From: Methylocystis silviterrae | GTDB taxonomy: Bacteria; Pseudomonadota; Alphaproteobacteria; Rhizobiales; Beijerinckiaceae | Length of the DNA stretch: 64,000 nt | Assembly: GCF_013350005.1 (NCBI RefSeq) | Contig: NZ_JABVWW010000003.1 | Coordinates: 62,001-126,000, forward strand | Direction of reading: 5' to 3' | Shown here: positions 2,302 to 25,091 of the stretch, piece after piece | Position numbering within the stretch: the stretch's first letter is position 1 | Layout of the letters: every line of letters starts with the position of its first letter | Position numbers and translations under genes: made by a program | The notes under the pieces: model-generated | What the model saw: the letters and a program-made list of their open reading frames with translations, nothing else | What the model was told of the DNA's origin: nothing | Databases searched by the model: none

Positions 2302-5136
2302 TTAACCCGTATTGCGCAAGCCCGCCGCAATGCCGTTGATCGACATCAGGATGCCTTCGCGAATGTCTTCGCCGCGCTCTCCTGCGCGATGGCGGCGGAT
2401 CAATTCGACCTGCAGATAGTTGAGCGGCGCGATATAGGGGAAGCGGTGCCGGAGCGATCGCGCGAGCGTCGGATTGTCCGCGAGCCGCTCCTTGGAGCCG
2501 AGAAGTTTTTCGAGCGCGTCATTCGCGCGCCCATGCTCCGCTTCGATCATGCCGAAAATGCGCGCGGCAAGCGCCTTGTCCTCGACGAGACCGGCATAAT
2601 GATGCGCGATCGACATGTCGGTCTTGGAGAGGATCATGTCGATGTTCGAGAGCAGCGCGCGAAAGAACGGCCATTCTTCGCTCATCCGGCGCAAGAGCGC
2701 GAGCCGCGCTTTCTCGTCCTCTTCGATGAAATGCGCGATCGCCGAACCAAAGCCGTACCAGCCCGGCAGCGCGACGCGCGCCTGCGCCCAGGAAAAGCTC
2801 CACGGGATCGCGCGCAGATCCTCGATGCGGCGCGAAGGTTTGCGCGAGGCGGGACGCGAGCCGATATTGAGCGAGGCGATTTCCGAAATCGGCGTCGACG
2901 AAAAGAAGAAATCGACGAAGCCTTCGGCGCCATAGACAAGTCCGCGATAGGCGGCCATGCCGGCCTGCGACAATTCTTCAGCAGCCTCCAAGAACTCCGG
3001 CGCCGGAGTCTTGTGCGCGGAAAGCAGCGTCGCTTCCAGCGTCGCCGCGACGAGCAGTTCCAGATTGACGTGGCCGATCTGCGGATTGGCGTATTTCGCC
3101 GCGATGACTTCGCCCTGCTCGGTCAGGCGGATCTGCCCGTTCACCGTGCCGGGCGGCTGCGCCAGAATGGCGTCGTAGCTCGGTCCGCCGCCGCGTCCGA
3201 CGGTTCCGCCGCGCCCATGGAAAAGCCGCAGCGCGACGTTCGGCGCCGAGGCGAAAAACTCCGCGAGCGCCGTCGAGGCGCGGTACAGCTCCCAGATGCT
3301 CGTCAGGATCCCGCCGTCCTTGTTGGAGTCGGAATAGCCGAGCATGACGTCCTGCTGCCCGCCGGAATTGACGACGAGCTTGAGGATGCCAGGGAGCGCA
3401 TAAAACTCTTGCATGATCGGCGCGGCGTTGCGCAAATCCTCGATCGTCTCAAAAAGCGGCACGATGATGAGATCGGCGATGACGCGCTGAGCGTCGCGCG
3501 GATCGAGCGTGCCGCGCATCAAGCCGCATTCCTTCTGCAGCAGCAGCACTTCGAGAAGGTCGCTGACCGTTTCAGTGTGGCTGATGATGTAATGGCGTAT
3601 CGCTTCATCGCCATAGAGCCGTCGCATCTCGAGCGCGCGTTCCATGATCGTCAATTCGCTCGTGGCGCGGTCGCTGTATGTCGCGCCCGGCAGGCGCACT
3701 GGCCGCGGATCGCCGAGCAGCCTCAGCAGCAACTGCTGCTTCTCGGCTTCCGGAAGCGCGGCGTAATCATCGACGACCCGGGCGGCGCTGAGAAGCTCGG
3801 CGATGGTCTCCTCGTGCCGGTCGGAGCTCTGCCGCAAATCGAGCGTCGCAAGGTGAAAGCCGAAGACTTCGACAGCGCGGATCAGCGGCTCGAGCCGCTG
3901 CGTAGCGATGACTTCGCTGTGATGCACCCGCAGCGACTCATCGATGGTGACGAGATCGGCGAGCAGCGCCCAGGAATTGGCGTAGGGTTCGCCCGGCGCC
4001 ACGGCGTGGCGCGCCGCCTGGCCGCCGGTCAGCTTCTCCAGCGTGCCGGCGAGGCGCGAATAGACGCCGATGAGCGCGCGGCGATAGGGCTCGTCGTCCC
4101 GATGCGGATTGTCGTCGCCCGAGCGGGCCGCAAGCGCTTCGAGCGCCTTGGTGCAGCCGGCGTAACGCCGCGACATCGAAAGTTCCGCGCCGAGCTCATG
4201 CACTTCGATGAGATAAAAGCGGAGCACGGTTTCGCACTGCATGCGCAGGGCGGTCGAAAGCGACTCCGCCGTCACATTCGGATTGCCGTCGCGGTCGCCG
4301 CCGACCCAGGCGCCCATGCGCAGGAACGGCGGCACGCGCAGTCCGTCGAGACGCTGTTCGATGTCCGCGTAAAGGCGCGGGATCTCGCGCAGAAATGTGC
4401 TGCGATAATAACTCAGCGTGTTCTCGATTTCATCGCGCACGGTCAAACGCGAATGACGCAACAGCTCGGTCTGCCAGAGCTGCGAGACGCGGGCGCGAAG
4501 CTGCATCTCGTTTTGCGCGCGCTCGGCCTTGCCACGCATATGCTCGCGCGCGGCGAGCAGTTTGAAGATCGCGTGTTCGGCGTCGAGCAGGCTCTTGCGG
4601 CGCACTTCCGTCGGATGCGCGGTCAGCACCGGCGAAATCCAGCCGCGCGCCAGCGCCTGGGCGATCTTGCCGGCGCCGACGGCGGCCTTGCGCAGACGCG
4701 CGAAGGTCGTGGCGAGGCTAGGCGCGCCGGTGAAGGCGCCGCTCGCCTGGGCGCGGGCGCGCTGCTGCAGCGGATGCAGGTCTTCGGCGATGTTCGCAAG
4801 ATGCGAGAAATAGCTGAAGGCGCGAATAACGGTGCGCGCCTCTTCCGCCGTCAGCGCGCGCAGCAGCGCGTCGAGATTCCTGTCGGCCTCGGCGTCCCCG
4901 TTGCGGCTTGCGGCGACGGAGAGCCGCCGGATCGTCTCGATGCGCTCGAACGCCGCGGTTCCTTCATGTTCACGAACTGCGTCGCCGAGCAGGCGCCCCA
5001 GAAGGCGAATGTCCTCGATGAGCGATTCGTCGCCCTTCAAGGCTTCAGGGTCGGCGCCCGCCGCCGCCGGAGCGGTCGTAACGAGATTTTCCTGCGCCTG
5101 CGTCTCAAGCTGCATACTATCGCGACCTTTAAACAT
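2302..5136 (-). CDS. ppc: Phosphoenolpyruvate carboxylase
   Basis: A protein of about 944 residues, the normal size for bacterial PEP carboxylase, which converts PEP and bicarbonate to oxaloacetate. This replenishes the TCA cycle and, in serine-cycle methylotrophs, assimilates CO2. Diagnostic motifs are [19 protein letters not shown] with the catalytic His at about 174, [22 protein letters not shown], the glycine-rich [15 protein letters not shown] loop, and the conserved C-terminal NTG. The ATG at 5136 is used; a TTG at 5148 and an ATG at 5115 are alternatives. A TATAGC -10-like sequence on the minus strand near 5166-5171 would suit the ATG starts. A huge antisense frame across this gene is a shadow. 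No serine-cycle genes adjoin it, so its pathway role is open. Confidence 0.97.
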
Positions 5137-15092: not shown

Positions 15093-15445
15093 GGGCGACG
15101 ACGCTAACGGGGCGGGAGCTGCGTTGCAAATCCGTATAGATCATGGGACGGGGGAAGGGTAGCGGCGGGGAGGGTAGCCGATCCGGCCAATCTGCTGCTT
15201 ATGACCCGTCTCGGCATTGCTCGTCGTTCAGTTCGCCACGGCGACGATAGATCGCGCGAACTCGCGCGTCGAGGAGCACAAATTTGTCGCCTTCCCTGAA
15301 CTTGACCGACCGCGGGAGCGAAGGCGTAATAGGCAAGAAGTTCACCATTCTCGACGATTACGGGACGCGCGCGGTCCAGCGATTGGTTTTAGGGATGTAG
15401 ACTTGGGCGGCTGATCGGCGTTTCGCCGCAAGTCGCGCGGGTTGA
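15093..15445 (-). pseudogene. Gene-poor region with a possible frameshifted gene remnant
   Basis: No intact gene. On the minus strand, two adjacent frames look protein-like and would join through a frameshift. One, around 15300-15390, reads RARPVIVENGELLAYYAFAP. The other, 15199-15290, reads SVKFREGDKFVLLDARVRAI and continues YRRRGELNDE to a stop at 15199. This could be the decayed end of a small gene at the edge of the accessory island. I cannot name the family, and chance is not excluded. Confidence 0.25.
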
Positions 15446-16777
15446 TCAATCAGCTGGCGAATGGCGCCGAGCGGGATCAGTCGAGGCGCCGGTCGTTGCT
15501 TTTCGGTATCCAGCATCCAACGGCGTACGGGGATCGTTCTCCATCAACTTGCATGCGACGTCCCCGAGCCGACGCGCAAAGCCTTCCAATGAGTATCTCT
15601 CTTCGTATAGCGCGCGCGTATCGCTCGCCACCGTATCGCTTCGTTCGCTCATGGCGCGACACTTGACCATGGCGGCGGCGAATTCACTGGCGTCATTCGC
15701 AATATAGACGTTGCGAAGCCGTGACGGATCGATCTCCATGCCCCTGAACGCCTTCGACGTCGCGATGACCGGAAGTCCGCTGGACAGAGCTTCCACGGTC
15801 TTGATTGAAAGGCCGTGCCCTTCTCTTGTTGGGAGGAGAATGAGAGCTGCGTCGGCGTAGGCGGCGTCTTTATCGGCTATCCTGCCGCGGAAAAGATTGC
15901 GATGTTTTTCATACAACGGCCTGTCACGCCTTTTCACGCCATCGGCGATGTCGCCAAAAATCGAAATCGACATTTCAGGAACATGCGGCACAATATATTT
16001 TAGAAACCATCGGACGCTGATGTAGTTGGCGGCGTTGTCGCCAGCGACAAAAATAGCCCGATCGCCATTGGGGGGGGCAGCCACGGGGGCTATCGACGGA
16101 TAGATCAGTTTGTGACGAGACTGAGGCAGCAGCTCGCCGAACGTCGCATACTCTTCCGAATTCAAGTGAATGCATAGGTCGGCGCGCTCGATCCATTCGA
16201 GTTCGATCGCGAGCATGCTGTTGTAGCGAACATGCGGCGGAATGCTAAACCCAGCGCGATTGCGTAGCTCGTACTGCCGAGCCTGAATGTCGTGAGTGTC
16301 TAGCACGACGGGAATGCGGCGCCTTTCACGCATTCTTTCGACGAAGGGCATTACGAAGAAATGGTTGGCGTGGATCAGGTCAATGGCGCCCGTATCGAGC
16401 GCTTCGGGCAGAGGCGCGCGCTTCACGAGCTCGACGAGCCAGGTTGCGTGGTCGCCATGGATCAAGGGCAACCAACCGTCCTTTAGGAGCGCTGTCTTGA
16501 AGAGGTCCGCGATCGTGGCGGACGATTCATATCTCTCGTCGGCCGCGAGGTCCCGACTATGCAACCTGTAGTTCTTCCAGCGCTCGCCATGGCCAATCGA
16601 GGGCGTGACATCGTCCATAAGCGCAACGGAGAGCACGCGCGCTCCAAGTTTCTTATAGGCCTTTATTTGGCTAGCGATGACCTGGTGCGTTCCGCAGGAA
16701 TGCCACGCAGGATGCACGACTGCGACGGTTTTTCCCGATAGCGCGGCGCGGCCCAAAGCTGATTGATGTATCGTCAT
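15446..16777 (-). CDS. Glycosyltransferase, GT4-like
   Basis: A 443-residue protein with the two-Rossmann-domain (GT-B) pattern of family 4 glycosyltransferases. The N-terminal half has KTVAVVHPAWHSCGTHQVIAS and later DLIHANHFFVMPF and VLDTHDIQARQYE. The C-terminal half has the nucleotide-sugar-binding stretch LLPTREGHGLSIKTVEAL followed by SSGLPVIATSKAFRGME, with the E-x7-E type acidic pair. It probably adds a sugar to a surface or exopolysaccharide. It lies 46 bases downstream of the histidine kinase stop on the same strand. A GTTTC-N5-GTTTC box at 16839-16853, inside the kinase 3' end, lies 62 bases upstream of its start. Confidence 0.82.
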   Translation of the reverse strand: MTIHQSALGRAALSGKTVAVVHPAWHSCGTHQVIASQIKAYKKLGARVLSVALMDDVTPSIGHGERWKNYRLHSRDLAADERYESSATIADLFKTALLKDGWLPLIHGDHATWLVELVKRAPLPEALDTGAIDLIHANHFFVMPFVERMRERRRIPVVLDTHDIQARQYELRNRAGFSIPPHVRYNSMLAIELEWIERADLCIHLNSEEYATFGELLPQSRHKLIYPSIAPVAAPPNGDRAIFVAGDNAANYISVRWFLKYIVPHVPEMSISIFGDIADGVKRRDRPLYEKHRNLFRGRIADKDAAYADAALILLPTREGHGLSIKTVEALSSGLPVIATSKAFRGMEIDPSRLRNVYIANDASEFAAAMVKCRAMSERSDTVASDTRALYEERYSLEGFARRLGDVACKLMENDPRTPLDAGYRKATTGASTDPARRHSPAD

Positions 16778-16823
16778 CCCGTTGACCCCTTTGGGTCCTC
16801 AAGGTCGGATTGCCTGGAGACAT

Positions 16824-18122
16824 TTATTTGCTCAGTTTGTTTCGTTTTGTTTCGAGTTCAGCTTTGGCCAGCGACACCCTCGCGATCAGGCCGCCGCCGG
16901 TCCGCTCATCCAACGTGAGGCGTCCGCCGTGAGCTTCCACGATCCCGCGGGCGATCGCCAAGCCCAGCCCGAAGCCCGCGTTTGCGTTCGAGGACGCGCC
17001 GACGTCTCCTCGCTCGAAAGGCTCTAGCATCGATTCCCTCTTTTCCTGGGGGATGCCCGGACCCCTGTCGACGACCTCGACAACCGCTGCGTCATCGCTT
17101 TCCCACAGCCGAACCTCGGGGCTTTCCCCGTATTTTACGGCATTGTCTATGAGGTTGGAGAACGCGCGTTCCAAATCGTCTGGACTGCCCAGAACGCTTA
17201 AGTGATCGACTCCGTCGTAACGTGCGTCGGCGCCCATATCGCCGAACTGATCGACAACCGCCTGCAACAGGCTCGCCAGATCCAGCGTCACGACTTCCTG
17301 CTGGAAACCGCCGCGCAAGTAGTCCAGGCAGCCGCGGACCATCGCCTCCATCTGGTCGAGGTCACGCAGTAGTTTCACTTTCGTGTCGCTGCTTTCGATG
17401 TATTCGGCGCGAAGACGCATGCGCGTAATCGGCGTTCGAAGGTCATGGCTAACGGACGTCAGCATCCGCGTTCGTTGGGAGGCCATCTCCGCGATGCGAC
17501 GCTGCATGCGATTGAAGGCCCGCGTCGCCTTACGGACCTCTTCGGGACCTGTCTCCTGCAACTGCGCCGGGATACTGTCGAGTCCGAAGGACTCCACAGC
17601 CTTGGCGAAGTTGGTGAGCGGACGCGTGAGCGACAACGCGGCCCATAAGGAGAAGACGAACAAACTGATCGCGATGAAGCCGACGGTGACGATCGCGAAT
17701 CGAGGAAATCCGAGAGGCCGGGCAGGAGCGTCGAGCAGGAATTGCTGACCGTCGTGCAACGACCCGCTAAATCGCTTGTCGTCATCGTGCGCTCCGATCT
17801 CGACCCCGACGGGAAGGCGAGACCGGAAATAAACTGGCTGGCCCCCGTCGCGCGCGGCGACTCCCGGCTCTGAGAGCGCGACGTGAAACCCCGGAAGGTT
17901 TGCGTTAAAGGCTGTGGCGATGGCTGGCCTTTCCGCTGCGGAAGCGGCGTCCAGCGCCGTCAGGGCCGCCACGACGACGGAGGCGCTCAGGTCCCGAGGG
18001 TGGCCGGGAGCGGGTTCAGACAAGAAAAGGATCGTCGTTACCGCCGCGTGGAACAGGCCGACGCATAGGAGGAGGAGAAGTCCCAGCTGCACATTGATGT
18101 TTCGGAGCGCAGACGTTTTCAA
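16824..18122 (-). CDS. EnvZ-like sensor histidine kinase
   Basis: A 432-residue membrane kinase. Helix one (about 11-35) and helix two (about 143-165) enclose a periplasmic sensor of roughly 105 residues. A HAMP domain follows (about 165-215, RPLTNFAKAVESFG). The dimerisation and phosphoacceptor motif SVSHDLRTPITRMRLR has His226 and is close to EnvZ. The ATPase domain has NLIDNAVKYG (N box), DRGPGIPQEKRESMLEPFERG (G1, F boxes) and GFGLGLAIARG (G2). It starts with TTG in TTGA, overlapping the response regulator stop, so expression is coupled. The C-terminal tail ETKRNKLSK encodes a GTTTC direct repeat on the opposite strand. The signal it senses is unknown. Confidence 0.92.
   Translation of the reverse strand: MKTSALRNINVQLGLLLLLCVGLFHAAVTTILFLSEPAPGHPRDLSASVVVAALTALDAASAAERPAIATAFNANLPGFHVALSEPGVAARDGGQPVYFRSRLPVGVEIGAHDDDKRFSGSLHDGQQFLLDAPARPLGFPRFAIVTVGFIAISLFVFSLWAALSLTRPLTNFAKAVESFGLDSIPAQLQETGPEEVRKATRAFNRMQRRIAEMASQRTRMLTSVSHDLRTPITRMRLRAEYIESSDTKVKLLRDLDQMEAMVRGCLDYLRGGFQQEVVTLDLASLLQAVVDQFGDMGADARYDGVDHLSVLGSPDDLERAFSNLIDNAVKYGESPEVRLWESDDAAVVEVVDRGPGIPQEKRESMLEPFERGDVGASSNANAGFGLGLAIARGIVEAHGGRLTLDERTGGGLIARVSLAKAELETKRNKLSK
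16839..16853 (-). promoter_or_regulatory. Candidate response-regulator box upstream of the glycosyltransferase
   Basis: On the + strand the sequence is GTTTC-GTTTT-GTTTC, a direct repeat with 10-base periodicity. The same pattern recurs at 18926-18940 and 19973-19987, always upstream of a minus-strand gene. Here it falls in the last codons of the kinase gene, so it may be coincidental coding sequence; a regulatory role is inference. Confidence 0.4.
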
Positions 18123-18853
18123 TGAATGCTGACTTTCGCCGTGAACGTGTAGCCCATCGAGCGGATCGTCTGAATGAGCGTCGGGTCTCGCGGGTCATTC
18201 TCGATCTTTTGACGAAGCCGGCTGATTAGGATGTCCACGCTCCGCTCGGTCGTGGACGACGCCTTCAGCTCGTCGCGCGAGAATATTTTTCCGGGATTAC
18301 GGCAGAGCGTCAGCAGCAGGTCGAATTCCGCGCTGGTCAGAATCACCCTTACGCCGGTCGGGCCCAACAGGCGCCGTGTGGAAGAGTCCAGGAGGAATCC
18401 AGAAAACCTATAGACGCTAATGTTCTGGGACGACTCAAGATCCGGGGCAGTCCGCCGGAGGACGGCCCCGATGCGCGCGAGCAGTTCACGCGGAACGAAG
18501 GGTTTGACCAGATAATCGTCGGCCCCGAGTTCGATTCCAAGTATCCGGTCAGTGTCTTCGCCGCGCGCGGTCAGCATGATCAATGGGGGGCTTCCCGAAT
18601 TCCGCAAGCGCATGCAGATGGAAAATCCATCCTCATCGGGAAGGTTGACGTCGAGCACGATGAGATCGACCCGCTCCCTCGCGAGAACCTCGTCCATCTG
18701 TCTGCCGTCACGGGCGAGCATCACCTTAAACCCGTTGTCGCTGAGATATTTCGATAAGAGCGATCGAATATCCTCGTCGTCCTCTACAACGAGGATCCAT
18801 CGTCTATCGGCGGCGCTTGATGCGAGTTCGTTCAAGGTCGGGAGTTCATCCAC
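18119..18853 (-). CDS. OmpR/PhoB-family response regulator
   Basis: A 244-residue two-domain regulator. The receiver domain (about 18-130) has the acidic pair VVEDDEDI, phosphoacceptor Asp68 in LIVLDVNLPDEDGF, Thr in MLTARGE and Lys in YLVKPF. The C-terminal winged helix (about 145-240) has TSAEFDLLLTLCRNPGKIFSR and the recognition-helix region RSVDILISRLRQKIE. It starts with GTG. It is the first gene of a pair with the kinase. A direct-repeat box lies about 73 bases upstream, which fits autoregulation, common in this family. Confidence 0.93.
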   Translation of the reverse strand: MDELPTLNELASSAADRRWILVVEDDEDIRSLLSKYLSDNGFKVMLARDGRQMDEVLARERVDLIVLDVNLPDEDGFSICMRLRNSGSPPLIMLTARGEDTDRILGIELGADDYLVKPFVPRELLARIGAVLRRTAPDLESSQNISVYRFSGFLLDSSTRRLLGPTGVRVILTSAEFDLLLTLCRNPGKIFSRDELKASSTTERSVDILISRLRQKIENDPRDPTLIQTIRSMGYTFTAKVSIH

Positions 18854-18879
18854 TCGCGGCTCCGAGCCAGCGGCGAGTT

Positions 18880-18896
18880 CCGAACCTAGGGTTCGG
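18880..18896. promoter_or_regulatory. Inverted repeat in the response regulator leader
   Basis: CCGAACC-TAG-GGTTCGG, seven-base perfect arms, 27 bases upstream of the GTG start of the response regulator. It could be an operator or an mRNA hairpin; no assigned factor. Confidence 0.4.
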
Positions 18897-18903
18897 CACA
18901 GCT

Positions 18904-18940
18904 GTGTCGAGATTTTGGCGCGTTTGTTTCATTTTGTCGC
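18904..18940 (-). promoter_or_regulatory. Candidate regulator box and promoter element of the two-component operon
   Basis: A 37-base element, GTGTCGAGATTT followed at a fixed 22-base offset by GTTTC-ATTTT-GTCGC. A near copy with the same offset is at 19951-19987 upstream of the sulfotransferase gene. The spaced GTTTC words suit an OmpR-family dimer, and TTCATTTTGT resembles the RstA consensus TACATNTNGTTACA. Function is inferred from position and conservation only. Confidence 0.5.
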
Positions 18941-19037
18941 GTGCAAGGCAGCCTATTACAGCCTCCAATCGAACGCCATCCCGCCACCTCACGCCCGGAG
19001 GCAGTCTGAATTCGAACGAACGCTGGCGTCGCTCAAG

Positions 19038-19075
19038 GAGCCGGCTTCAAAAATAAGAGCCGGCTTCAAAAATAA
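19038..19075. repeat. Perfect 19-base tandem duplication at the sulfotransferase 3' end
   Basis: Two adjacent identical copies of GAGCCGGCTTCAAAAATAA, at 19038-19056 and 19057-19075. On the minus strand the second unit creates the TGA stop (19047-19049) of the sulfotransferase gene, so the present C-terminus FEAGSYF depends on the duplication. It is probably a recent slippage event. Confidence 0.9.
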
Positions 19076-19868
19076 CTTCAGGATAGAACCGTAGCAAAAA
19101 ATCTCGGTAATGATGAATTACATATAAGATAACGCCTCTCGGCAAAGCATCTCGCCATTCAGTGCTGCTTCCACAGCGATAGTGCGACGAGAGATCTATC
19201 ACGCCCTGTTGCCGGCCGGTCATCGCAGCAAACGAAAACCTATCAGGATCGGGCATTGATGCATTTCTTAAGACCTCCGTTCGAGACATTTCGCGAAAGA
19301 AGTTTGCTGCGTTTGCGGTCATGTCCTCCATGCGCAACGTAACGATTCGTGAGTCGTCGTAATTCCACGCGATCATGTCGTACAAAGGACCGTTGGTCTC
19401 CGGCTGAAAGTGACTCGATTCCAGAAATGACAAGGTCAAGGCCATGCCGACGTCTTTGTCGACTTCACTTAAAACATTCCTCTGACGAGCCAGGAAGTCC
19501 CATCCATCAATCGGATGTGTTCGGAGGTGGGAGTAGTATGCGGAGACGATTACACTCATGGGATTTCTTATCACATGCATGCACTGCATGTTCGCAGATA
19601 TATGGTTGTTTATGCCAGAATAGTCAGCATTCAGCGCGACAATGACATCATTGCCGGAGTTGAGCGCCATTTCCATAGTATATCCTGACTCTGGGCATTG
19701 ACGTCCCCACGGGATCGCGATGTATTTAAAATTATTCTCGCGGCAAATATCCATAACTATCGATGTTAGCCAGATCGATGCGCACTTGTGGTGCGTAAAT
19801 AATGCAAGTTTTTTGCGTTTGTTTAGCAAATAACGAATGCGATTGGCGATATGAAAAGCATTTATCAC
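19047..19868 (-). CDS. Sulfotransferase-like protein
   Basis: A 273-residue protein with PAPS-dependent sulfotransferase motifs. The 5'-phosphosulfate loop is THHKCASIW (about residues 25-33). The 3'-phosphate motif is RNPMSVIVSAYYSH (about 101-114). A late CGSSTEWRDALP matches the conserved substrate/PAPS-closing region. It probably sulfates a carbohydrate, perhaps the product of the nearby glycosyltransferase. It starts with GTG. The gene is AT-richer than the housekeeping genes around it, suggesting transfer. Its stop codon lies in a 19-base tandem duplication. A regulatory box shared with the two-component operon lies about 105 bases upstream. Confidence 0.78.
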   Translation of the reverse strand: MINAFHIANRIRYLLNKRKKLALFTHHKCASIWLTSIVMDICRENNFKYIAIPWGRQCPESGYTMEMALNSGNDVIVALNADYSGINNHISANMQCMHVIRNPMSVIVSAYYSHLRTHPIDGWDFLARQRNVLSEVDKDVGMALTLSFLESSHFQPETNGPLYDMIAWNYDDSRIVTLRMEDMTANAANFFREMSRTEVLRNASMPDPDRFSFAAMTGRQQGVIDLSSHYRCGSSTEWRDALPRGVILYVIHHYRDFLLRFYPEVIFEAGSYF

Positions 19869-19950
19869 TTTAGTCTCTGACGCCTAGCAGAACAGTTTTA
19901 GTGCTCGCGGCTTGGCCGGGCAGGTGGACGCTCGAATATTCCGCACGGGA

Positions 19951-19987
19951 GTGTCGAGATTTCGGCTGGCCGGTTTCATTTTGTTTC
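19951..19987 (-). promoter_or_regulatory. Second copy of the candidate regulator box, upstream of the sulfotransferase
   Basis: GTGTCGAGATTT at 19951, then GTTTC-ATTTT-GTTTC at 19973-19987, with the same 22-base offset as the element at 18904-18940. This copy has a perfect direct repeat of GTTTC at 10-base spacing and is the best match in the window to the RstA-type consensus. It lies on the same side of, and in the same orientation to, its minus-strand gene. Confidence 0.5.
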
Positions 19988-20177
19988 TGACAGTCGGGCC
20001 TATCTGTATTTCGTAAGATAAATCACGGGTTTAATTTGGGGCATGACTTGCCGAGATTGAGTTCGCCCGCCGCCCGCCGGCCGGCTGCAATCTCGCGGTT
20101 GGCGCTTGTGAAGCCATTCACCTGCAGAGAAGCGTTGGCTCACGACAGCCGCCGATCTTCTTCAATCGCCTACGCGA

Positions 20178-20375
20178 TTGAGGCAGACGATTTCCCTTGA
20201 TAATAGTCAGGTAAGCGACCTTAGCCGACTCGCTGGGCTAGCCTGCTTGCAGAGCCTTTCGCTTAATAATTCGCCGGTAGGCGACCTTGGGGAGGTGTGT
20301 GTTGAACGCGCCGAGCGAGCGGCCGCATTGGAGGAAACTCTCGGGCAGCAAGGCGTCTTGTATGTAAGCACATAA
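20178..20375 (+). pseudogene. Leucine-rich-repeat protein remnant
   Basis: A 65-codon open stretch whose first half is clearly leucine-rich repeat: LDNSQVSDLSRLAGLACL then QSLSLNNSPVGDL, a repeat of about 22 residues. The rest (ERAERAAALEETLGQQGVLYVST) is not repeat-like, and no signal, start region or full domain surrounds it. It is most likely the scar of a larger LRR protein gene lost by deletion. The flanking 19.88-20.17 kb holds no other coding sequence that I can support. Confidence 0.5.
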
Positions 20376-20423
20376 AGAAATCTTTATATCTTTATTGCCT
20401 TTCTCGACCGCCCCTGCTATAGG
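20372..20423 (+). promoter_or_regulatory. Probable ahcY promoter with inverted-repeat operator
   Basis: The operator-like inverted repeat ATAAAGA-AA-TCTTTAT (20372-20387) is followed by a third TCTTTAT (20389-20395). It adjoins a promoter-like TTGCCT (20395-20400), a 17-base spacer, and TATAGG (20418-20423). The AT-rich palindrome stands out in GC-rich DNA. From memory it is reminiscent of ArsR-family SahR operators that control S-adenosylhomocysteine recycling genes in Proteobacteria; the match is not verified. It implies a leader of about 200 bases. Confidence 0.55.
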
Positions 20424-20484
20424 CTGGTCCCGAGCCGCTGGGCTGGACCAGCGGCGGGAATTCGGTTGAGCCGTTCCTTGGCGC

Positions 20485-20587
20485 GTCATTCCCGGCAGGC
20501 AGCGGGCCGGACCGGGAATCCAGAGCCGACGCAGAAACGACGGTTTTGCTCTGGATTCCTGATCGCGCTTCGCGCGTCGGGAATGAC
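20485..20587. repeat. Interspersed palindromic repeat in the ahcY leader
   Basis: A 103-base element with terminal inverted arms GTCATTCCCG (20485-20494) and CGGGAATGAC (20578-20587). Inner arms ACCGGGAATCCAGAGC and GCTCTGGATTCCTG pair imperfectly, and a GCGC-TTC-GCGCG mini-hairpin lies near the right end. Elements of this GGGAATCCAGAGC type are, to my knowledge, common between genes in alphaproteobacteria. It sits 41 bases before the ahcY start, so it would be transcribed as part of the mRNA leader. Confidence 0.75.
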
Positions 20588-20628
20588 ATTCGAGACCAAG
20601 CCGCGCAAAAGAAACAGAAGGATTTCGC

Positions 20629-22038
20629 ATGACCGCACATCACTTTAACGATTTCGCCGTCACCGACCTTTCGCTGGCCGAATGGGGCCGCAAGGAAATC
20701 GCCATCGCCGAGACGGAAATGCCGGGCCTGATGGCGACCCGCGCCGAATATGGCCCGTCGCAGCCGCTGAAAGGCGCGCGCGTCGCCGGCTCGCTGCACA
20801 TGACCATCCAGACGGCCGTGCTGATCGAGACTTTGAAGGCGCTCGGCGCCGATGTGCGCTGGGCCTCCTGCAACATCTATTCGACGCAGGACCACGCAGC
20901 CGCCGCCATCGCCGCGACCGGCACGCCGGTCTTCGCCAAGAAGGGCGAGAGCCTCGAAGACTATTGGGATTACACCCACAAGATCTTCGAATGGGGCGAC
21001 GGCGGCTGCCCGAACATGATCCTCGACGACGGCGGCGACGCCACGCTCCTCATTCATCTGGGCCTGCGCGCCGAGCAGGGCGACGTCGCCTTCCTCGAAA
21101 CCGCTTCGAATGAAGAAGAAGAGGTTCTCTACGCCTCGATCAAGAAGCGCCTGAAAGCCAATCCGGGCTTCTACAAGCGCAACGCTGAGGCGATCAAAGG
21201 CGTCACCGAAGAGACGACGACGGGCGTGCATCGCCTTTATGTCATGCACAAGGAGGGTAAGCTCCTCTGGCCGGCGATCAACGTCAACGACTCGGTGACG
21301 AAGTCGAAATTCGACAATCTCTATGGCTGCCGCGAGTCGCTCGTTGATGGCGTGCGCCGCGCCACCGACGTGATGATGGCCGGCAAGGTCGCCGTCATCG
21401 CCGGCTATGGCGACGTGGGCAAAGGCTCGGCCGCTTCGCTGCGCAACGCCGGTTGCCGCGTGCTCGTCACCGAAATCGACCCGATCTGCGCCCTGCAGGC
21501 GGCGATGGAAGGTTATGAAGTCACGACGATGGAAGACGCCGCGCCGCGCGGCGACATCTTCTGCACGGCGACCGGCAATGTCGACGTCATCACCGTCGAC
21601 CATATGCGCGCCATGAAGGACCGCGCCATCGTCTGCAACATCGGCCATTTCGACTCGGAGATTCAGGTCGCTGGCCTGAAGAACCTGAAGTGGCACAATG
21701 TGAAGCCGCAGGTCGACGAGATCGAGTTTGCGGACGGCAAGCGCATCCTGCTGCTCGCCGAAGGCCGCCTCGTGAACCTCGGCTGCGCGACGGGCCATCC
21801 GTCTTTCGTGATGTCGGCGTCCTTCACCAATCAGACGCTGGCGCAGATCGAGCTGTGGACCAAGCAGGGCCAGTATCCGGTCGGCGTCTACACGCTGCCC
21901 AAGCACCTGGACGAGAAGGTCGCCTCGCTGCATCTCGACAAGATCGGCGTGAAGCTGACGCAGATGACCGACGAGCAGGCCAAATATCTGAACCTGCCGA
22001 AGAACGGCCCGTTCAAGCCGGACCATTACCGCTACTGA
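20629..22038 (+). CDS. ahcY: Adenosylhomocysteinase (S-adenosylhomocysteine hydrolase)
   Basis: A 469-residue NAD-dependent enzyme that splits S-adenosylhomocysteine into homocysteine and adenosine, clearing the inhibitor left by methyltransferases. Hallmarks are [23 protein letters not shown], the substrate-binding [25 protein letters not shown], the NAD-binding loop [33 protein letters not shown] and the C-terminal [14 protein letters not shown] with the NAD-contacting Lys and Tyr. Length includes the roughly 40-residue insert usual in bacterial forms. The start follows AGAAGGA. A strong terminator lies directly downstream. Confidence 0.98.
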
Positions 22039-22281: not shown

Positions 22282-22586
22282 ATCACGCGCCAAACGCTGG
22301 GGATCGAAGTTCGCCCGAACGCCCCGCACATTCGCTCTTCAAAGATTCCGTTTTGGGCAATTGCGCTTTAGATTGGGGTTGATTCGTGTGCGGCGCGCCA
22401 GGCGACGGACGGAGCCCTCCGTCTTCCTGTCGTCGGAGCCGATCCGCATCCTGCGCTCGGCAGGCTGCGTCCGCGTTCTGCAAGAACCGTTTACGGCGTT
22501 GTTGTGATGAGCACCCGCAATTGACCGTGGAGACCGGCTTTCATGACGCGCCAATTCGATCGCTTGCAAGCGGAGTCGTCCTCGCA

Positions 22587-25091
22587 ATGACGAGACGGCG
22601 GCGCGCGATCAACCACTCTGGCGCTCCTCCCTTTGTCGGCGCTTCCCTCGGGTCTTTGCTTTTATGGCTCGAGGCGACGCCGGCGCGCGCGGCAGGCTTC
22701 CTCGAGGATCTGGCGATCGATCCGCAGATCGTCAGCTTCGCCTTTAGCGGCGGACTGGCGATTTTCGCCGCGGCCATCGTCACGACGCATGTGCGCGAAC
22801 GCGCCGCCTGGCGTCGCCGCGAAGCCGCGTTGAGCGTCGAACTCGACGACGCTCGCGCCCAGCTCGGCCGGGCAAAAACCTTCCTCGCCTCCGAGCCGCA
22901 GATCTTCGTCGCCTGGACCACGCCCGACGCCGAGCCCGATATCCATTCTTCATCTCTGATCATGACCGGGGCTGTCGCCGCGCCGCGCCGCATATTGAGC
23001 TTTGGCGCCTGGCTTGTGCCCAAAGACGCTCAGGCGCTCGAAAGCGCCGTCGACCGTCTGCGAAAGAGCGGCGAAAGCTTCCGCTTGGCGCTTGCCGGCG
23101 TCGCCGGTCGGCATTTTGACGCCGACGGCCGGGCGGTTGGCGGCAGCGTCGTGTTGCGTATCCGTGAAGTCTCCGGCGACCGGTTGGAGCTGATCGGCCT
23201 TCGCGAGCGCTACGCGTCGGCGCAATCTGAACTCTCCGGTCTGCGCGCGATGCTTCAGGCGCTGCCCGCGCCATTTTGGATACGCGACGACGCGGGCGAA
23301 CTCGTCTTCGTCAACGACGCTTATGCGCAGGCGGTCGAAGCGAAGAATCCCGAGGACGCCCTCGCCCGCAAACTGGAGTTGCTCGACCAGTCGGCCCGCA
23401 GCGCCGCTGAGGACGCGCGCGCCAAAAACAGCGTCTGGCGCGAGCGCGTCAACGCCGTCGTCGCGGGCGCGCGCCATCGGCTCGACGTCACACAGGCCTC
23501 CGCCGCGGGCGCCGCCGCCGCCATCGCGATCGATCGTCATGAGGTCGAGACGGTGCGCGCCGATCTTGAACAGCAGATGCAATCGCATGTGCGCACGCTC
23601 GATCAGCTGCCGACGGCGGTCGCGAGCTTCGATCGCGCGCGGCGCCTGATGTACAGCAACGACGCTTACGCCAAGCTGTGGCAGCTTGACCCCAGGTTCC
23701 TCGAGCAACGGCCGACGGACGGACAGATTCTCGACCGTCTGCGCGCCGAGCAGCGCGTGCCCGTTGAGTCGGATTACAGGGCGTGGAAGGAGCGGCTGTT
23801 CGAAGCCTATCGCTCGCCAGAGCCCATACGTCACACGTGGCATCTGCCGGATGGCCGCATCATCGACGTCGTCGCGCATCCGAACCCCAAAGGCGGCGTC
23901 ACCTATCTTTATGACGACGCCACTAAGGCTTACGATCTCCAGACGCGCTTCAACGCGCTTGCCCGCATGCAGAGCGAAACGCTCGAGACGCTGCATGAGG
24001 GCGTGGCGGTTTTCGGTTCCGACGGGCGTTTGAAGTTCAGCAATCCCGCCTTCGCCCATCTGTGGCGGCTCGATCCCGAGGAGCTTACGAAGCGGCCGCG
24101 CTTCGACGCGCTCGCCGCGAAATGCCGCGCGCTGCACGCCACAGAGGAGACATGGGGGGCGTTGCAGGGCTTTGTCACCGGTCTCAATGAACTGCGCGAA
24201 GGCTTCACCCGGCGCATCGAACGCAGCGACGGCGTCGTCTTGGACTGTACGGCGCAGTCGTTGCTCGACGGCGCGGCGCTCCTCACCTTCGTCGACGTTT
24301 CCGCCGACGTGAATGTCGAGCGCGCGCTGACGGACCGCAACAAGGCGCTGCTCGCCGCCGAAAAGCTGCGCAATGACTTCATCCATCACGTCAGTTATGA
24401 GCTGCGCTCGCCGCTCAACAACATCAACGGCTTCGTGCATCTCCTCGGAGAGGACTCGACCGGCCCGCTCAATCCGCGCCAGCGCGAATATCTTGGCTAT
24501 GTCAACAAATCCTCCGCGGCGCTGCTCGCCATCGTCGACGATATTCTCGATCTGGCGACCATCGACGAAGATGCGCTGGAGCTTGAAGTTTCCGAGGTCG
24601 ACGTCGAGGCGACGATGCGCGCGGCGATCGAAGGCGTGCAGGATCGGCTCGCCGAAAATTCGATCGACGTGCAGATCGTCGCCATGGACGATGTCGGAAC
24701 GTTCCGCGGCGACGCCAAACGCGTGCGCCAGATCCTGTTCAATCTTCTTTCGAACGCCATCGGCTTTTCGCGTCCGGGGCAGACGGTGACGCTTGCCGTG
24801 TTGCGGCGCGAGACCGAAATCGTCTTCAAAGTCACGGATCGCGGCCGCGGCATTTCGCCGGAAATCCTCGAACGCATCTTCGATCGCTTTGAGTCGCACA
24901 CTGCCGGTTCCCGCCACCGCGGCGTCGGGCTCGGCCTTTCCATCGTGCGCGCCTTGATGGAGCTGCATGGCGGCAGGGTCTTGATTGATTCCGCCCCTGG
25001 CGAAGGCACGACCGTGACCTGCATCTTTCCGGCGCATGCCGCGCATGAAGAGGCGCGTCTCCTCGCGGCGAGCGCTGGAGGCGCAGAATGA
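22587..25091 (+). CDS. Membrane-anchored multi-PAS sensor histidine kinase
   Basis: An 834-residue kinase. Two hydrophobic segments occur near the N-terminus (SLGSLLLWLEATPARA and IVSFAFSGGLAIFAAAIV). Then come about 400 residues with PAS-like modules (for example PAPFWIRDDAGELVFVNDAYA, LPTAVASFDRARRLMYSNDAYA, LHEGVAVFGSDGRLKFSNPAF). The phosphoacceptor motif FIHHVSYELRSPLNNI has His601. The ATPase domain has LFNLLSNAIGFS, DRGRGISPEILERIFDRF and GVGLGLSIVRALMELHGG. The ATG at 22587 is used; the frame is open to 22386 but that extension is not protein-like. No receiver domain or partner regulator is adjacent. The stop overlaps tsaE. In related genomes, as I recall, this kinase sits at the same place, but its signal is unknown. 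Confidence 0.9.
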   Translation: MTRRRRAINHSGAPPFVGASLGSLLLWLEATPARAAGFLEDLAIDPQIVSFAFSGGLAIFAAAIVTTHVRERAAWRRREAALSVELDDARAQLGRAKTFLASEPQIFVAWTTPDAEPDIHSSSLIMTGAVAAPRRILSFGAWLVPKDAQALESAVDRLRKSGESFRLALAGVAGRHFDADGRAVGGSVVLRIREVSGDRLELIGLRERYASAQSELSGLRAMLQALPAPFWIRDDAGELVFVNDAYAQAVEAKNPEDALARKLELLDQSARSAAEDARAKNSVWRERVNAVVAGARHRLDVTQASAAGAAAAIAIDRHEVETVRADLEQQMQSHVRTLDQLPTAVASFDRARRLMYSNDAYAKLWQLDPRFLEQRPTDGQILDRLRAEQRVPVESDYRAWKERLFEAYRSPEPIRHTWHLPDGRIIDVVAHPNPKGGVTYLYDDATKAYDLQTRFNALARMQSETLETLHEGVAVFGSDGRLKFSNPAFAHLWRLDPEELTKRPRFDALAAKCRALHATEETWGALQGFVTGLNELREGFTRRIERSDGVVLDCTAQSLLDGAALLTFVDVSADVNVERALTDRNKALLAAEKLRNDFIHHVSYELRSPLNNINGFVHLLGEDSTGPLNPRQREYLGYVNKSSAALLAIVDDILDLATIDEDALELEVSEVDVEATMRAAIEGVQDRLAENSIDVQIVAMDDVGTFRGDAKRVRQILFNLLSNAIGFSRPGQTVTLAVLRRETEIVFKVTDRGRGISPEILERIFDRFESHTAGSRHRGVGLGLSIVRALMELHGGRVLIDSAPGEGTTVTCIFPAHAAHEEARLLAASAGGAE

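Follow-up and report, generated by a model that had tools for sequence, protein, structure and literature searches.

A conserved GAAAC direct repeat at an OmpR/EnvZ-type locus of Methylocystis silviterrae: putative operators of a small envelope regulon

The locus and its direct repeats

A two-component locus lies within a 64,000-nucleotide stretch of the Methylocystis silviterrae genome (assembly GCF_013350005.1, contig NZ_JABVWW010000003.1, positions 62,001 to 126,000), referred to here as the window. The locus encodes an OmpR-family response regulator (RR), an EnvZ-like sensor histidine kinase, a sulfotransferase-like protein (ST) and a group-1 glycosyltransferase (GT), and a 15-base direct repeat, here called the box, is present before the RR, ST and GT genes (Table 1). 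Read in gene direction, the window boxes consist of two GAAAC half-sites 10 base pairs apart; the first half is imperfect at RR, where the box has two mismatches to the 15-mer repeat. The distance from the box to the start of the minus-strand gene behind it is 73 bases for RR (18853), 105 for ST (19868) and 62 for GT (16777). A preliminary description of this DNA had given the coordinates, orientations and distances of the three boxes, and all of these are correct. The orientation of the box relative to the target gene is identical in the three window boxes, in four boxes of a diverged relative (G001) and at a site before an outer-membrane beta-barrel gene, the last two being described below.

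Table 1. Features of the two-component locus (positions in the window)
Feature	Position	Strand	Remarks
Box before RR gene	18926..18940	-	GTTTCATTTTGTCGC on + strand; gene direction GCGACAAAATGAAAC; first half imperfect
Box before ST gene	19973..19987	-	GTTTCATTTTGTTTC on + strand; gene direction GAAACAAAATGAAAC
Box before GT gene	16839..16853	-	Within 3' end of kinase gene; GTTTCGTTTTGTTTC; gene direction GAAACAAAACGAAAC
Conserved block past RR box	18904..18915	-	AAATCTCGACAC (gene direction), 10 bases past the box; promoter or leader element
Copy of block past ST box	19951..19962	-	12-base block AAATCTCGACAC
RR, OmpR-family response regulator	18119..18853	-	244 amino acids; Response_reg + Trans_reg_C
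EnvZ-like sensor histidine kinase	16824..18122	-	432 amino acids; HisKA, HATPase_c; HAMP slightly under cut-off
ST, sulfotransferase-like protein	19047..19868	-	273 amino acids; weak Pfam matches under cut-off
GT, group-1 glycosyltransferase	15446..16777	-	443 amino acids; Glyco_trans_1_4

The sequence GTGTCGAGATTT is found at 18904 and 19951, at a 22-base offset from the RR and ST boxes, respectively; the GT box is without it and sits inside the kinase reading frame. About 37 bases had been described as conserved. This stands for the RR and ST promoters, whose extended similarity probably arose as ST entered the locus, through a copy of the RR promoter, and the repeat alone is common to all sites. 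Eight bases past the second half-site, the window has CAAAAT, CGAAAT or CAAATA, and most relatives have CAGAAT or CGGAAT at RR and ST. Judged by its sequence and position, this hexamer is a possible -10 element, in which case the repeat would cover the -35 region and the spacer. Scans of positions 15200-20700 for sigma-70 promoters (1 promoter-like site, 2.6 expected) and terminators (6 terminator-like sites, 5.8 expected) were uninformative, and a search of the window with Rfam returned a single tRNA and nothing else.

Rarity and conservation of the repeat

The 34-base bipartite pattern, allowing up to 3 mismatches, was found twice in the window and in none of 100 shuffles. When the whole 3.85-Mb genome was scanned for it in the same way, as the preliminary description had proposed, the RR and ST sites were the only matches and the control gave 0. 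The own genome has two copies of exact GAAACAAANNGAAAC, both of them at the locus; allowing one mismatch brings the total to 6, and the reversed control then gives 4. The four single-mismatch copies away from the locus, whose loci are dissimilar to all ten locus proteins, were set aside. Taken by itself with 3 mismatches allowed, the 15-mer turns up 4 times where 1.56 are expected and so is not rare; the rarity of the box depends on near-exact matches. The three window boxes are poorly explained by chance.

The repeat was also followed in 39 genomes of the same genus, the own genome included. RR is present in 18 of these at an identity of at least 67%, in 15 of them at 84% or higher, and RR matches of 54% identity or less were treated as paralogues; the locus was fetched from the 17 other RR-bearing genomes. 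There are 26 exact copies of the repeat GAAACAAANYGAAAC, spread over 16 of the 39 genomes; 25 of them are at the locus, and the reversed control has 2. The 26th (in G023) adjoins none of the ten locus proteins. All 15 genomes with an RR of at least 84% identity carry the exact repeat, compared with 1 of the 24 other genomes. Among 149 sampled family genomes, some of them from the genus itself, no kinase from outside the genus exceeded 49% identity.

This distribution bears on the question of which regulator would bind the boxes, because a different OmpR-type paralogue of the same genome could do so in place of the adjacent RR. The RR protein has 35 matches in the own genome (E-value up to 0.001), some of them 48-51% identical (for example on contig C44), which could bind in principle and count against assigning the boxes to RR; the recognition helices of OmpR-type regulators are, moreover, closely alike. 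Matches to RR exist, however, in all 39 genomes, yet the exact box is absent from 20 of the 21 genomes without RR and lies elsewhere than the locus in the remaining one. The boxes also cluster at the locus of RR itself, its own promoter included. Binding by a paralogue instead of RR is very unlikely.

Conservation of the boxes in relatives carrying the same genes, which the preliminary description had proposed to look for, was found at all three promoters. The box precedes RR in 15 of 15 close genomes and GT in 15 of 15 (own included in both), and it precedes ST in all eight genomes with a complete ST gene, with the last base altered in one. G001, G018 and G016, whose boxes have diverged, were excluded from the box matrix and from the conservation table, and G024, which has only a C-terminal remnant of ST, was excluded from the ST rows. 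Mean pairwise column identity was computed without gaps, with the box as anchor. At the RR promoter it is 0.86 and 1.00 in the two half-sites and 0.37 in the 45 bases upstream; at the ST promoter the corresponding values are 1.00 and 0.95 versus 0.43, and at the GT promoter 1.00 and 1.00 versus 0.71, the upstream sequence there being coding. Direct repeats with a 10-bp period are thus kept at the promoter of RR and at those of its neighbours, and the box both co-occurs with RR and stays at orthologous promoters.

The GT box overlaps the last codons of the kinase gene, which has 432 codons and is read through the box in 12 genomes, that of the window included. All 15 bases of the box are intact in three relatives with a changed kinase gene: G038 has a shifted frame, and G027 and G019 have the stop codon ahead of the box. 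Since it is kept where the kinase frame has changed, the box survives loss of its coding role.

More distant evidence comes from G001, in which RR is 76-77% identical. Variant boxes precede four genes in this genome: RR, a 469-amino-acid open reading frame (this box lying at the kinase end), an inverted GT gene (67%) and a gene for an outer-membrane beta-barrel of 233 amino acids. The reciprocal best match of this barrel in the window genome is on contig C44 (66% identity; 59% by BLASTP), and its gene has the box GAAACAACTTGAAAT 117 bases before the start. The regulon had been described as self-contained, which does not hold given this box on another contig. The barrel survey comprised 30 matches with a locus; in 10 of them the match starts at residue 20 or later, so the region scanned for a box was extended from 400 to 900 bases. 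The five closest barrel orthologues (G000, G005, G010, G038 and G001), all in genomes with RR, have boxes scoring at least 19.9, and the remaining 25 of the 30 loci, each the best match of a further genome, have no box scoring 8 or more within 900 bases. For background, 400-base segments drawn at random from parts of the window beyond the locus had a 99th-percentile score of 10.6. Between G001 and the window genome, the core of the barrel box is retained and much of the leader differs.

The boxes could also be a matter of mere ancestry, ST having been inserted together with a copied RR promoter and the GT box being coincidental coding sequence. The RR and ST promoters do share further bases past the repeat (AATCTCGACAC and CTGTGCGGAAC), and ST is absent from six genomes, with the S-adenosylhomocysteine hydrolase gene (ahcY) directly upstream of RR in four of them and about 2 kb between the two genes in the other two. 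In the ST promoters, however, conservation is high in the two half-sites (1.00 and 0.95) and in the block (0.98) and drops to 0.76 in the 10 bases between repeat and block. The GT box, as described above, outlasts its coding role in the frame-changed relatives, and the barrel promoter has a box in a leader without visible resemblance to the RR and ST leaders (compared by eye, unaligned). As an explanation of the boxes, ancestry alone is extremely improbable.

A putative OmpR/EnvZ-type regulon

As judged from comparison of sequences, the boxes are most probably operators of the adjacent OmpR/EnvZ-type two-component system and would mark a lineage-restricted, autoregulated envelope regulon. The EnvZ-type kinase would sense a signal and phosphorylate RR, a dimer of which would bind head-to-tail, as OmpR/PhoB-family regulators do on direct repeats of about 10-11 bp, with the two GAAAC half-sites separated by one helical turn (10 bp). 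RR would thereby control its own operon, the ST-like gene, the GT gene and the barrel gene on the other contig, by activation or repression. The sites themselves, their near-exclusivity to the locus and to genomes with RR, and their persistence after a change of the kinase frame or relocation of a target were computed; binding, phosphorylation, the sign of control, the signal and the substrates are what we infer. The preliminary description had proposed that RR controls itself and two enzymes, a sulfotransferase and a glycosyltransferase. The promoter comparison (15 of 15, 8 of 8 and 15 of 15), together with the near absence of the box elsewhere in the genus, strongly supports this as a prediction, and the nearer model, the extent of the regulon and the label of ST have been amended. 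No publication on this regulon was found in the open-licence literature, among the matches listed.

Several observations weigh against this assignment. At the RR promoter, the next 10 bases (0.93) and the 12-base block (0.98) are nearly as conserved as the repeat, so that conservation there cannot single out the repeat, and the first half-site of the RR box reads GCGAC or GCAAC in 12 of the 15 genomes. These 15 genomes are kin and do not represent 15 independent events. The RR boxes are degraded in G001 and G018, and G016 has no clear box. For the GT box, a test of third codon positions (synonymous sites) in the 12 genomes did not reach significance (63 of 428 equally sized windows are as conserved), and the argument that the box is more than coding sequence therefore depends on the frame-changed relatives. 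The barrel locus DNA of G000, G005, G010 and G038 is 92-96% identical, and only these 4 of the 39 genomes have it, which leaves the comparison with G001 as the only test of the barrel box. The 189 family genomes from outside the genus contain 15 copies of the exact repeat (reversed control 5), and 14 of these 15 loci are without similarity to the ten locus proteins.

A further possibility is that the boxes are parts of promoters of the extracytoplasmic function (ECF) sigma type, with the second GAAAC as the -35 element and YGNC, 16 bases on, as the -10 element; the two-component system would then be a target and not the controller. The pattern AAANYGAAAC-N16-YGNC fits all three window sites (CGAC, CGAC and TGTC), and similar spacing is found in the sigma-W and sigma-M promoters of Bacillus. 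YGNC is present at the ECF-like distance in three of the four G001 sites (CGCC, CGCC and TGTC), and the second half-site is the fully conserved half of the RR box. Across the 39 genomes the pattern occurs 182 times (control 104), and 97 of the matches (control 34) fall in the 15 genomes that have a close RR; 37 of these are the locus boxes, and the excess among the remaining 60 is only partly explained by single inherited sites. In the own genome, however, there are 6 matches, three of which are the window boxes, and the control gives 3; in the 21 genomes without RR the excess is small (72 matches, control 60). Several of the matches outside the locus, among those listed, represent one inherited site recurring in many relatives. 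The ST and GT promoters show no variation in the upstream half-site, which an ECF promoter would not need, and the YGNC position holds GGCC at the barrel site of the window genome and TAAC at the RR site of G001. There is no sigma factor among the 10 annotated proteins between 11465 and 25091. Control by an ECF sigma factor is improbable, and operators of the adjacent system remain the preferred interpretation of the boxes.

For a genus with a probable methane oxidiser among its members, the locus yields a prediction open to experiment: a two-component regulator, its operator sequence and four target promoters. The own genome has two genes of the pmoA/amoA family, and because of these the source organism is very probably a methanotroph. 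The relatives also form a natural series in which the co-evolution of OmpR-type operators and regulators can be followed, as well as the persistence of operators that outlast a frame change of the overlapping coding sequence.

Comparison with known regulators and other genes of the locus

RR has both domains expected of its family over the Pfam cut-offs (PF00072, 101.7 bits; PF00486, 66.8 bits). The best NCBIfam models are OmpR for RR and EnvZ for the kinase, and both matches are well under the curated cut-offs: RR scores 232.7 bits with the OmpR equivalog NF007005 (cut-off 331, not reached) and the kinase 199 bits with the EnvZ equivalog NF007004 (cut-off 415, not reached). RR may function like OmpR though not classed as OmpR. 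It is 47% identical to Escherichia coli OmpR, and its recognition helix (ERSVDILISRLRQ) is near-identical to that of OmpR (ERSIDVQISRLRR). Tandem half-sites 10 bp apart are common to the boxes and to OmpR, and a further likeness to the EnvZ/OmpR system is that the predicted targets include a gene for an outer-membrane barrel. In PMC5438342, the E. coli OmpR repeat is printed as GTTACATTTTGTTACAT; the ST box is identical to it at 13 of 15 positions, the RR and GT boxes at 12 of 15 and the barrel box at 10 of 15. This OmpR repeat scores 17.7 with the box matrix, compared with at most 14.2 for all window 15-mers outside the locus.

RR and its sites also differ from OmpR. On the strand that reads GTTTC, the fourth base of the half-site is T, compared with A in the GTTAC-N5-GTTAC of OmpR, and four sites are predicted among the loci examined here, whereas PMC5438342 gives 24 transcription units for OmpR. 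By alignment, the loop preceding the recognition helix is six residues shorter in RR than in OmpR, and the short form was read in all 18 RR orthologues. In PMC4660055, this loop is named the transactivation loop and was modelled facing sigma region 4 in PmrA. If that role holds across the family, the polymerase contact of RR would differ from that of OmpR; RR could equally be a repressor. It is tentatively possible, though doubtful as a whole, that RR is an offshoot of OmpR with an operator one base off per half-site and a loop six residues shorter, governing a four-promoter envelope regulon, perhaps mainly by repression, through a polymerase contact unlike that of OmpR or PhoB, with operators that follow relocated targets and one operator inside the kinase coding sequence.

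RstA had initially been put forward as the model. The RstA box (TACATNTNGTTACA) is likewise a tandem OmpR-family site and overlaps the OmpR consensus (PMC4117788). The likeness to RstA is weaker: RR is 35% identical to E. coli RstA and scores 145.6 bits with the RstA equivalog NF007977 (cut-off 330, not reached), and OmpR is the nearer of the two models. Among alphaproteobacteria, ChvG/ChvI and CenK/CenR are also two-component systems that control envelope and polysaccharide genes. The PhoP box of Salmonella, GTTTA-N5-GTTTA, also consists of direct GTTT repeats with a similar period and differs in the last base.

Two loci from other genera of the family were noted. In G063 (L195, 5000-5014), the gene of another EnvZ-like kinase has the exact repeat at its 3' end, just before a CusB/HlyD-type gene; this may be due to chance or parallel use. 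In G043 (L200, about 4170-4194), three tandem GAAAC units in 10-base steps lie about 100 bases before the gene of an OmpR-type regulator, on the opposite strand; this regulator is 53% identical to RR.

The sulfotransferase label of the preliminary description is tentative, as the Pfam matches of the window protein are all below the curated cut-off (Sulfotransfer_1 16.7 and Sulfotransfer_2 18.4, of 22 bits). Sulfotransfer_1 was matched in 8 of 8 aligned proteins (E-value up to 1) and Sulfotransfer_2 in 3 of 8, with best E-values of 0.005 and 0.0026, respectively. A fold predicted from the single ST sequence was too poor for further searching (pLDDT, a per-residue confidence score, 33.8). A perfect 19-base tandem duplication (19038-19075) at the 3' end of ST makes the C-terminus shorter and unlike that of the orthologues, and residue 32, in the K[CS]ASTWL stretch, is Ile in the window protein and Thr in all seven aligned orthologues; because of these two changes, the window copy of ST may be losing function.

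In G018, a weak box-like sequence is present at the kinase end before an adenosine 5'-phosphosulfate (APS) kinase gene. This gene (L048, 4383-4961), whose product acts in the synthesis of 3'-phosphoadenosine 5'-phosphosulfate (PAPS), follows the kinase gene in the usual place of GT, and its position weakly suggests a link to sulfation. In the window, ahcY (20629-22038) is followed by a gene for a multi-PAS histidine kinase of 901 amino acids (22386-25091), and this pair adjoins the locus in 8 of the 17 relatives fetched.

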